45,263 nucleotides of DNA from Olsenella sp. An285 (GTDB taxonomy: Bacteria; Actinomycetota; Coriobacteriia; Coriobacteriales; Atopobiaceae): the NCBI RefSeq assembly GCF_002159625.1, contig NZ_NFIZ01000018.1:1-45263 (forward strand), in the 5' to 3' direction. Shown here piece after piece: positions 5,674 to 39,232 of the stretch (positions are counted from its first letter, which is position 1; every line of letters begins with the position of its first letter). The position numbers were made by a program, and so were the translations under genes. The notes below the pieces were generated by a model that did no database searches, was not told the DNA's origin, and saw nothing but the letters and a program-made list of their open reading frames with translations.

Positions 5674-5708
5674 GGCCGGCCGAACCCGGGGGTGGGGTTC
5701 GGCCGGCC
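5674..5708 (-). terminator. Terminator of pgi
   Basis: Perfect 14-bp stem (5674-5687 with 5695-5708), GC-rich, loop of seven bases. It lies about 40 bases beyond the pgi stop codon on the minus strand. It could also stop plus-strand transcription from the cassette; the T-run is weak on both sides. Confidence 0.7.
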
Positions 5709-22331: not shown

Positions 22332-22399
22332 GAGGCCCGCCGGCCTTCCGGAGAGAAGTTCCACGAAGTGCACTTCTCGCAGGAAGGCCGGCGGGCCTC
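22332..22399. terminator. Bidirectional terminator between the GH13 gene and pyk
   Basis: Perfect 18-bp stem (22332-22349 with 22382-22399). Its 32-base loop holds an inner 7-bp stem GAGAAGT (22353-22359)/ACTTCTC (22372-22378). It sits between convergent genes. Confidence 0.8.
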
Positions 22400-32553: not shown

Positions 32554-32588
32554 GGGCGGGCGGCACGGAGGGTTCGTGCCGCCCGCCC
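32554..32588 (+). terminator. Terminator after garR
   Basis: Perfect 14-bp stem (32554-32567 with 32575-32588), loop GAGGGTT, followed by TTCTCG. Confidence 0.8.
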
Positions 32589-36621: not shown

Positions 36622-39003
36622 CTAGGCCTCCAGCAGGCGGCGGCCCCACTCCGCCACGCGCGCCTTCATGCCCGCCACGTCCAGCACTCCCTCGGCAAAG
36701 CCCTTGCGGATGAGGGACTCCGGCACCAGCTCGTCGTACTTCTCGAAGTAGGGGACCTCGGCGGGGTAGAGGAGCTCCATCGGGTCCTCCAGCCGCTCCG
36801 CCGCGTCGCACACGACCGAGAAGAACGCCTGCTCGTTCTCCTTCATGACGAAGGTCATGAAGTACGGGCGCGACGAGTTGACGCCCTTGATGCCCAGCTC
36901 CGCCGCGCACTTGATCTTGACGAGGCGCTCGAGGGCGAGAAACGCGTACGTTCCCAGCCAGGGCAGCAGGCACCACATGGTCTGCTCCTTGTCGTTCTCC
37001 CCAAGGCAGACGAGGGGCCCCTCGGTGAGGTGCGAGCTTCCTGCCACGTGGCGCGCCTGGCGCAGGCGGGCGCGGGCGTGGCCCATGAGGTAGGGGTAGG
37101 CCTCGTGCTCCTCTAGCACGCGGCGCATGCGCTCGAGGATGTGCGTGTTGATGTCTCCCGCCACGTCCCCGAAGTACGCCGGCACCTTGCCCTTGACCTG
37201 CGTGACGTAGAGGAGGTGCCGCTCGTGGTCCACCTCGTCGACGATCCACACGTGGCCGGCGATGGCCACCTTCTCGCCAGGCGGGGGCGGGGCGCAGAGC
37301 GTGCCGATCTCCGTGGAGTCGCAGCGCACGGTGTACTCCACGTTCTCCTGGAAGACGGCGAAGAACTTGTAGGAGCTCGTGACGCGCTCGCCCGCGAGCC
37401 CCACGATGAGGCCGCCCGACTCCGTCTGCTCGATGAAGTCCAGGCGCAGGAGGTGGCGCAGGAGCTCGCGGAAGTCGTCCGCGGTCACGCGGTGGAAGTA
37501 GGTGAGCGTGAGGACGCGGCTCGCCAGCTGGGCGGGGGAGAGCTCCCCCTCCGAGGCGAGCGTGGCCAGCGTCTGGTGGCAGAGCAGGCTGTAGGGGAGG
37601 CGGTCGAGGTTGGGCGGCTCCACCCAGCGCTCCTCTCGGTACAGCTGGACGAGCGCGATGCCCTGCAGGAGCTTCCAGGGAATGGTCTCGGGCAGGAGGG
37701 TGCGGGCCTCCGGCTGGTCCTCCCGCATGACGAACCACATCTCGGGCGGGCGCTCGCGCCGGCCCGTGCGGCCCATGCGCTGGAGGAATCCGGACACGGT
37801 GAACGGCGCGTCTATCTGGAACGCGCGCTCCAGGCGCCCGACGTCTATGCCCAGCTCGAGCGTTGCCGTGGCCACGATGGAGAGATCCGATGCGTCGTCG
37901 CGCATCCGCTCCTCGGCACTCTCGCGTATGGCGGCGGAGAGGTTGCCGTGATGGATGAGGAAGCGGTCGGGCTCGCCGTTGAACTCGCAGTACGCCCTGA
38001 GCGTGGTGCAGACCTCCTCCGCCTCCTCCCTGGAGTTGGAGAAGATCAGGCACTTGTGACCCCGCGTGTGCTCGAAGATGTAGCCGATGCCCGGGTCGGC
38101 GTTGGCGGGGGCGGTGTCCGTGGGACCCTCGTCAGGGGCGGGGGCAACCTCCGTGCTCAAACAGCTTCGCCCTGCGGGCTGCAGAACTGCGCGCGGAGGT
38201 TGCCCCCGCCCCTGACGAGGGTTGGAAATCGTCTCCACCGCGACGACGTCGGCATCAAGGCTATTGCCGCTCGTTTGGATCTGGCCTTCGTCTGCCTGGG
38301 GATCGGTGTTGTAGAAGTGCTCCATAGAGATGCGCCAGGTGCGGGGCGGCTCCTCCACGCGGGGGATGACCGTGCCGCGCCCGGTGCCTGCTGCCAGGAA
38401 GGCGCCGACCGCCTCCGGGTCCCCAATGGTAGCCGAGAGGCCGATGCGCCTCGGCTGCACGCCCGCGATTCTCGCCAGGCGCTCGATGAGGCAGAGGCAC
38501 TGCCCGCCGCGGTCCTGGCGCAGGAGCGCGTGGACCTCGTCTATGACCACGTAGCGCAGGTCGCAGAAGAGCTTGGAGATGGCGGCGTGGCGGCGCATGA
38601 GCAGGGCCTCGAGCGACTCCGGCGTGATCTGGAGGATGCCGGAGGGCCGCCGCATGAGCCTGGCCTTGTGCGAGGCGGAGACGTCCCCGTGCCAGTGCCA
38701 GACGCTGATGCCCGCCTCCTCGCAGAGGTCCGTGAGGCGATAGAACTGGTCGTTGATGAGGGCCTTGGTGGGTCCTATGTAGAGGGCGCCGACGGATGCC
38801 GGCGGGCGCTCCCAGAACTCGGTGAGGATGGGGAAGAAGGCGGCCTCGGTCTTTCCCGAGGCGGTGGAGGCGCACAGGAGCACGTGGTCGTCCGTGTCAA
38901 AGATGGCCTCGCCCGCGGCCACCTGGATGCCGCGAAGGCTCTCCCACTCGTGCGAGTAGATGAAGTCCTGCACGAACGGCGCGTATCTGTCGAAGACGCT
39001 CAT
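36622..39003 (-). CDS. DEAD/DEAH-box helicase, Lhr/BrxHI-like
   Basis: 793 residues. The ATG at 39003 follows AAAGGAG; longer frames upstream lack support. SF2 helicase motifs: Walker A ASTASGKT (45-52), PTKALINDQ, ITPESLEALL, DEVH (155-158), LSATIG, then in lobe 2 HHGNLS, VATATLELGIDVG and QRMGRTGR. A long C-terminal region resembles Lhr-type helicases and BrxHI of BREX. It probably translocates on nucleic acid. Residues 261-293 are a foreign-looking PRQGRGQPP...APDEG stretch encoded by a perfect DNA palindrome (38125-38222), in the linker between lobes. It is downstream of the BrxD-like gene, suggesting one functional pair. Confidence 0.82.
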   Translation of the reverse strand: MSVFDRYAPFVQDFIYSHEWESLRGIQVAAGEAIFDTDDHVLLCASTASGKTEAAFFPILTEFWERPPASVGALYIGPTKALINDQFYRLTDLCEEAGISVWHWHGDVSASHKARLMRRPSGILQITPESLEALLMRRHAAISKLFCDLRYVVIDEVHALLRQDRGGQCLCLIERLARIAGVQPRRIGLSATIGDPEAVGAFLAAGTGRGTVIPRVEEPPRTWRISMEHFYNTDPQADEGQIQTSGNSLDADVVAVETISNPRQGRGQPPRAVLQPAGRSCLSTEVAPAPDEGPTDTAPANADPGIGYIFEHTRGHKCLIFSNSREEAEEVCTTLRAYCEFNGEPDRFLIHHGNLSAAIRESAEERMRDDASDLSIVATATLELGIDVGRLERAFQIDAPFTVSGFLQRMGRTGRRERPPEMWFVMREDQPEARTLLPETIPWKLLQGIALVQLYREERWVEPPNLDRLPYSLLCHQTLATLASEGELSPAQLASRVLTLTYFHRVTADDFRELLRHLLRLDFIEQTESGGLIVGLAGERVTSSYKFFAVFQENVEYTVRCDSTEIGTLCAPPPPGEKVAIAGHVWIVDEVDHERHLLYVTQVKGKVPAYFGDVAGDINTHILERMRRVLEEHEAYPYLMGHARARLRQARHVAGSSHLTEGPLVCLGENDKEQTMWCLLPWLGTYAFLALERLVKIKCAAELGIKGVNSSRPYFMTFVMKENEQAFFSVVCDAAERLEDPMELLYPAEVPYFEKYDELVPESLIRKGFAEGVLDVAGMKARVAEWGRRLLEA
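38125..38222. repeat. Palindromic element inserted in frame in the helicase gene
   Basis: Perfect 29-bp inverted repeat, 38125-38153 against 38194-38222, with a 40-base loop containing GCCC-TGC-GGGC. Both arms and loop are translated as helicase residues 261-293 without breaking the frame. The encoded stretch is Pro/Gly/Arg/Ala-rich and does not look like helicase sequence. Confidence 0.85.
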
Positions 39004-39043
39004 GCTCGCTCCTTTCCCCTCGTCACAGTATAGAAAGCAGCGC

Positions 39044-39232
39044 GTGCTGCACGCGGACTTCGAGGACGACCTCATCATCGCGGCGGCGCTCAGGGCTAAG
39101 GCGGACTATCTGGTCACCAACAACGAGGGCCTGCTGCGACACTGCCCGGTTGCCGCGCTGGACGCGAGGGACATGGTTGCCCTGCTCGAGACCAAGGACG
39201 TCGCGAGCCCGGGGGAGGCTGCGCGCCCCTAG
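39044..39232 (+). pseudogene. C-terminal fragment of a PIN-domain toxin
   Basis: The plus-strand frame reads HADFEDDLIIAAALRAKADYLVTNNEGLLRHCPVAALDARDMVALLE. This matches the C-terminal half of PIN-domain (VapC-like) ribonucleases, including the DFED and DYLVTNN acidic motifs. No N-terminal half or start exists; the upstream DNA is the helicase start on the other strand. No antitoxin gene is seen. It is a relic of a toxin-antitoxin system lying between the helicase and ATPase genes. Confidence 0.65.

Follow-up and report, generated by a model that had tools for sequence, protein, structure and literature searches.

A palindromic repeat with a conserved, invertible tip and mostly locus-specific paired arms lies in frame within proteins of an Atopobiaceae genus

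A perfect hairpin in the linker of a helicase ORF

The window, by which we mean the whole 45,263-nt stretch of Olsenella sp. An285 DNA analysed here, carries a helicase ORF with a long hairpin inside it (Table 1). The initial annotation had described a 98-bp palindrome with perfect 29-nt arms, lying wholly within the coding sequence and between the helicase lobes, and this description was confirmed: the Pfam domains DEAD (residues 51-219 of the host ORF) and Helicase_C (residues 335-441) flank the residues encoded by the element. Several NCBIfam helicase models also matched the ORF, none of them above its own cut-off. The true start of the ORF may be a later ATG, since many orthologue matches begin near residue 20-26. 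The encoded stretch, NPRQGRGQPPRAVLQPAGRSCLSTEVAPAPDEG, had been called low-complexity; judged by eye, it is not notably so.

No longer perfect hairpin was found in the window, the runner-up having arms of 18 nt, and in 100 sequences simulated from a first-order Markov model of the window the hairpin arms never exceeded 15 nt. Shorter hairpins with perfect arms of 14-18 nt, possibly terminators, lie at 22332-22399, 5674-5708 and 32554-32588.

Table 1. Parts of the hairpin and the ORF that contains it (positions in the window)
Feature	Position	Strand	Remarks
Outer arm, upstream on the plus strand, 29 nt	38125..38153	.	Perfect complement of 38194-38222; variable between species, mostly still paired
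Core, 40-nt centre	38154..38193	.	Conserved half-sites flanking a small inner hairpin; this is what recurs elsewhere in the genome; inverted in other species
Core half-sites	38153-38164 (first)		GTGCTCAAACAG at 38153-38164; GAACTGCGCG towards the other arm
Second arm, 29 nt	38194..38222	.	Complement of 38125-38153
Host ORF, DEAD/Helicase_C helicase, 818 aa as listed	36622..39078	-	Element encodes residues ~286-318, the inter-lobe linker

The tip recurs in the genome and the arms are local

The window's own genome (G000; other G numbers denote compared genomes, and L numbers loci) was searched with the whole 98 nt. The view of the arm as the repeated unit did not survive this search, in which the tip alone recurred. 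Besides the self-match, the 98-nt query returned mainly partial matches centred on the tip, together with a few chance-like ones (L009, L013 and L014, for example). What repeats is the tip of a hairpin, about 40-55 nt long and made up of outer pairs, GYGCTCARACAG, an inner hairpin and GAACT(S)GCG; every other true copy has these two half-sites round an inner hairpin that is itself variable. Outside the half-sites, the arms of the copies run for 13-36 nt with 0-2 mismatches (17 copies at 16 loci of this genome). The 14 nt adjoining the core have a mean identity between loci of 44% (16 copies), so that conservation does not extend over the whole element with its arms, and 5 of 120 pairs of copies share at least 11 of these 14 nt, all of them within L022 (first copy), L025, L026 and L028. 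In the 16-copy alignment no arm column is constant beyond the pairs adjoining the core. MITEs have terminal inverted repeats common to their copies, together with a target-site duplication; the copies here mostly do not have their outer ends in common. The arms are mostly particular to their own locus.

Pairing was analysed in an alignment of 16 of the 17 measured copies from this genome, the L010 copy being left out. Standard pairs filled 92.8% of the pair cells, versus 69.2% with partners shuffled, and covariation was 0.610 versus 0.193 after shuffling. Sliding by one column left 38-46% paired and sliding by one to three columns 38-50%, in a comparison that favours the structure, as it was drawn from the same 16 sequences. 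Because the alignment spans different loci, it shows that matched arms are specific to each locus. A covariance model of the tip, built from 16 own-genome copies and run at E 0.01 with up to 150 first-look candidates scored per genome, matched 19 times in the window's own genome and found matches in all 31 genomes of the genus, from 1 (G020) to 39 (G011).

Among matches of the exact core pattern the inner loop seems to be constrained too, with AAAGGAC, ACAGAGC or AGAGGGC between complementary stems. A very long palindrome at L043/L044 (G000:C1:49569-49644) is unrelated; its arms in the predicted fold exceed 40 nt, and it contains an internally repeated unit, TGACAGATTGCTC.

Helicase orthologues keep the palindrome while arms and core orientation change

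Helicase matches were obtained in all 31 genus genomes, those in G010 being only weak ones to other helicases and the gene of G009 being split over contigs. An element or its remnant was present in 29 of the 29 orthologues that are readable at the site (G009 and G010 are unreadable there), one of them degenerate, and on this ground we rejected a recent insertion at the helicase, one of the two readings that had been given for the perfect arms. No empty site was seen among these 29 orthologues, nor any target duplication, and no empty site precise to the base was found in the outgroups, whose linkers are very variable and too diverged for base alignment.

The core has the same orientation as in the window in 18 of the 29 orthologues, is inverted in 10 and is degenerate in G020, and the encoded residues differ with its orientation (PRAVLQ...CLSTE versus PCSNSF...APAELRAE). 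On the helicase gene tree, with the degenerate G020 coded as normal and G007, which has a diverged core, as inverted, orientation changed at least 7 times. None of the 29 orthologues has a stop codon in the element stretch; at 11 of the 29 loci stops occur elsewhere in the whole match, presumably near an end, with open frames of 791-1127 aa.

Over 20 arm positions, 89.4% were Watson-Crick paired in the 27 orthologues that could be anchored (G007 and G020, which could not, were excluded from the arm statistics). Shuffled arms, a control that leaves the relatedness between orthologues in place, gave a mean of 67.4% and a maximum of 73.1%, with 0 of 500 shuffles as high as the observed value, and slid arms gave 30-38%. 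Left arms were distinct in 23 of the 27. The initial annotation had considered a contrary outcome, in which orthologues would carry the same protein sequence and no DNA palindrome; what we found is a palindrome kept in most orthologues while the protein letters change. Its mention of gene conversion, taken in a wide sense, agrees with the homogenisation of the arms; orthologous arms change together yet mostly stay paired. Pairing has decayed in some species, to 11 of the 20 positions in G006, 12 in G019, 14 in G029, 14 in G030 and 15 in G012, and G020 is too degenerate to anchor; as these species have kept the helicase, survival of the gene does not depend on pairing.

Comparison with the sister genome G018 bears on the arms in the window's own lineage. 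Continuous arm pairing extends for only 19 nt in G018, versus 29 nt in G000, and past these 19 nt the left arm of G018 has a similar older form that is common to G029 and G021. Four bases of the outer left arm, three of them adjacent, differ in G000 from G018, all now matching the G000 right arm, and at the protein level EPPEG has become NPRQG. In this single case the change has the form that would be expected if one arm had been copied onto the other. Five more differences between G000 and G018, in the 13 bases just upstream of the arm, are not explained by arm copying.

Copies in iorA and in a permease-like ORF

The likeness to Rickettsia RPE, palindromic repeats inside proteins, that had been drawn from the helicase alone holds more widely. 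The L010 copy lies in frame in iorA (NCBIfam IOR_alpha, above cut-off), where sites are filled or empty, and a third in-frame copy lies near the start of the 570-aa ORF of L028. The latter ORF probably encodes a permease; an FtsX domain occupies its C-terminal part (Pfam above cut-off, NCBIfam under cut-off), and the part with the element has no domain match.

At the threshold used, iorA matches came from 27 of the 31 genus genomes. The site is filled in 19 of these, with 238-266 nt between the chosen anchors, and empty in 8 (G030, G027, G029, G007, G026, G017, G028 and G020), with 169-182 nt. Over 16 positions the arms of the 19 filled genes are 95.7% paired, versus a shuffled mean of 75.7% with 0 of 500 shuffles as high, and the core is inverted in one filled gene, that of G021. 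The filled or empty state changed at least 6 times on either of two gene trees, which do not agree with each other; iorA seemingly undergoes recombination between species. In the outgroup, 11 genomes can be read at the iorA site and show no core there, though the linker of G092 is longer. A loose core-word check had flagged the iorA sites L311 and L314, which we judged to be chance, 169-170 nt being the length of an empty site.

In the permease-like ORF the core of G000 has the opposite orientation to that of G018 and G021, and the arms covary. The frame is open in all three genomes, with spacings of 138 and 144 nt.

Intergenic copies near gene ends and in convergent doublets

Intergenic positions were taken from an ORF survey by codon-position GC, without annotation. 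At 10 of the 13 non-coding G000 loci (L038 included) no more than about 22 nt separate the element from a stop codon; two of the remaining loci are upstream of leuC and leuD, and L002 fits neither class. Many copies form convergent doublets some tens of nt apart, and convergent pairs occur in G000, G018 and G021. At one intergenic site, with flanks that are 98-99% identical, G000 has 128 nt with the hairpin versus 26 nt in G018. No target duplication was seen at this near-identical site, where the 26 nt were replaced and not interrupted. At the same site the element is present in G011 and G016 and absent from G009.

Upstream of ispF (L038), in a spacer that follows a gene we take to be ispD, the element is present in G000 and in 0 of the 10 other species compared (L383-L391 and L395). 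Eight of these 10 have other perfect hairpins in the spacer, with arms of 20-80 nt (80 in G014, 55 in G021, 41 in G011, 36 in G016, 35 in G029, 32 in G008, 28 in G009 and 20 in G022), and in G017 and G018 the arms are just 8 and 7 nt. Some of these hairpins resemble, by eye, those next to the Y1 genes L258, L404 and L429. The 80-nt hairpin of G014 is composed of repeated units.

Three copies lie around leuC, leuD and leuB at L248 (G000:C32:79000-87000), with two of the copies preceding leuC and leuD; the equivalent region of G018 is seemingly rearranged. At the leuB end, G014 and G029 have a B-type copy, and G000 has an A-type core on outer arm bases common to G014 and G029, followed by a half copy of the B type (its right half). 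In a convergent doublet downstream of a gene that looks peptidase-like by eye (L222 in G018, L231 in G021) the arms have swapped places between the two hairpins while the inner cores keep their order, an exchange that simple arm-to-arm copying does not explain.

The element is absent from Y1 transposase loci of the genus

Y1 (RAYT-like) transposase genes are present in 28 of the 31 genus genomes, and the element was found at 0 of their 76 loci, searched with the covariance model and the core word over about 1 kb on each side (some loci being cut by contig ends). We therefore rejected RAYT as the mobiliser: the first 24 loci gave 0 matches and the other 52 gave four, with E values of 1 or worse. 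These four, and a lone half-core word in L411 without its partner half, were judged to be chance. The genomes G001, G004 and G013, in which no Y1 gene was detected, have 12, 7 and 18 model matches. A perfect hairpin of at least 13 nt is present at 45 of the 76 loci, and the hairpins beside Y1 genes (L251-L270, L396-L447) are other sequences, long-armed, many with GGGGAC and without the element.

Template switching as the probable source of matched arms and flipped cores

A recurring tip thus stands on differing, near-perfectly paired arms, and orthologous arms change together. At three orthologous sites within genes the core occurs in either orientation. Sites are filled or empty, and the element is translated in frame. 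Because arm homogenisation and spacer inversion are both present in three ORFs, we infer a REP/RPE-like repeat whose arms are rewritten by template switching. In our judgement the element probably belongs to a dispersed REP/RPE-like family of palindromic repeats, centred on one Atopobiaceae genus, in which template switching during replication homogenises the arms and flips the core; the role of template switching as the cause is inferred from sequence comparison. A switch of template within the hairpin during replication would copy one arm onto the other, leaving the arms matched and sometimes lengthened, and the core could be inverted by the same process or by recombination between the arms. 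Insertions in coding sequence would survive only in tolerant linkers with an open frame, and the element would be mostly neutral or selfish while its mutation process rewrites linker residues. At some sites arms or core type have been replaced wholesale (the L008 locus in G021 versus G000; L025 versus L240); such replacement of arms, like the exchange of arms in the doublet, is not accounted for by simple arm-to-arm copying.

Parts of PMC8604942 describe template switching in yeast coding genes that led to arm homogenisation and spacer inversion, with repeated flips and amino-acid replacements, and homogenised arms with a spacer inverted between relatives are also seen here. The inversion table of that paper has arms of 10-16 nt and spacers of 2-5 nt, whereas here, in bacteria, the members of a dispersed family have arms of up to 36 nt on either side of a conserved spacer, itself about 40 nt long. 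Template switching has been argued, in passages of PMC8794818, to create and maintain hairpin stems generally. It has also been proposed as one possible mechanism for the perfect inverted repeats kept in coding genes of Nematomorpha mitochondria, for which the relevant passages of PMC6649704 mention no conserved dispersed core.

Covarying stems are usually taken as proof of a selected structure, and a conserved tip with covarying stems is indeed also expected of a structured RNA. We consider it unlikely, if worth keeping in view, that selection for an RNA structure (mRNA 3'-end protection or pausing, for example) maintains the element and that arm covariation is compensatory evolution for pairing. 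Such a structure would fit the conserved internal loop, the outer stems that covary and the inner stem that varies, as well as the 10 of 13 non-coding own-genome loci close to a stop codon, but leuC and leuD are preceded by two copies and ORFs contain three, pairing has decayed in the several helicases listed above with the gene kept, and an inverted core presents the opposite RNA strand of the loop where the site itself is unchanged. Rfam searches with 9 loci returned 6 weak matches, mostly to microRNA models and all under the gathering score. Inside translated regions, covariation of the arms and flips of the spacer go together with altered protein letters. This pattern points towards a mutational process that imitates selection, and parts of proteins appear to be rewritten by quirks of DNA copying and not by selection. 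If template switching is at work, the family provides many natural replicates, in 31 genomes and some within proteins, for measuring the process in bacteria, and it bears on the extent of linker evolution driven by template switching and on false calls of structured RNA.

A more speculative version, to which we give little credence, is a hairpin-seeking mobile element: an enzyme would insert a conserved single-stranded tip at the apex of existing hairpins, the older hairpins would become the arms, and template switching would then perfect and lengthen them. Were this true, nested palindromes would follow, and intergenic sites would act as hot spots where palindromes of one family give way to another between species.

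Integron integrase and Y1 enzymes act on hairpins, and a dedicated recombinase or single-strand transposase could in principle recognise the core, invert it and insert it at hairpin tips. Repeated core inversion, convergent doublets, filled and empty sites and an apparent nesting in G103 (see below) would all suit such an enzyme. We nevertheless hold it to be distinctly improbable, because in the enzyme family that was searched, Y1, the element is absent from 76 of 76 genus loci, because the Y1-less genomes named above still hold model matches, and because inverted-repeat arms suffice for inversion without a special enzyme.

The known classes of repeat resemble the family in part. In RPE, palindromic repeats have entered unrelated genes in frame (PMC10969869, in part), as the element has in the helicase, in iorA and probably in the FtsX-domain ORF; here, however, it is mainly the tip that is conserved, most arms are specific to their locus, flipped cores occur, and the arms stay complementary between species (89% in the helicase, 96% in iorA), with decay in some of them. 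With REP, BIME and REPIN, as portrayed in sections of PMC3733652, the element shares small hairpins near gene ends, inverted doublets and occasional intragenic copies. REP stems of 5-13 bp are given in Table 1 of that paper; the arms here are longer, at 13-36 nt, conservation lies at the apex, no constant tag (GTAG/CGTC) is present at the hairpin base in 16 copies, and no genus Y1 locus carries the element. That it is simply an RPE of the Rickettsia type, or the REP that belongs to a resident RAYT, is scarcely credible despite the small palindromes, the in-frame insertions, the doublets and the 28 of 31 genomes with Y1 genes, since the Y1-adjacent hairpins differ, the arms exceed REP stems, and RPE are said in a passage of PMC6649704 to lose repeat identity with time, whereas the arms here are largely matched. 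An assembly error is unlikely, although the compared genomes are mostly drafts, because the arms are at most 36 nt where measured and the pattern is repeated in named isolate assemblies (L077, L079). Arms of 36 nt are short relative to usual read lengths.

Range within the class

Among named organisms, Olsenella and Thermophilibacter have the closest relatives of the helicase. In the family, 79 of 140 genomes, the genus included, had covariance model matches at 1e-5 (up to 34 first-look candidates per genome). We rejected this family-wide range as overstated, since among 26 matches listed at least 4 (L188, L194, L196 and L199) lack the core. Because the model overstates the range outside the genus, the exact core pattern was used for the survey of the class. 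It is present in 41 of 396 class genomes, and a reversed control pattern in 2. Of the 26 genus members sampled, 23 are positive, as are 8 further genomes of the family (one of them at least, G098, likely by chance), 7 in two genera (g44 and g49) of another family, f3, and 3 elsewhere; the exact pattern overlooks G001, G004 and G020, genus genomes that do have covariance model matches. In the open-licence literature drawn on, in part and with preprints outside its scope, no family of this kind is named for Coriobacteriia, and Collinsella, Atopobium, Olsenella and words in Coriobacter- are absent from PMC3733652.

G103, a genome of another genus, has about 30 copies (L190-L206, L273-L290), many of them with a common inner arm sequence such as GGAGGTTATG. 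Some of these copies are apparently nested within the inner hairpin of another copy, which hints at insertion at the tip, and other rearrangements could yield the same arrangement.
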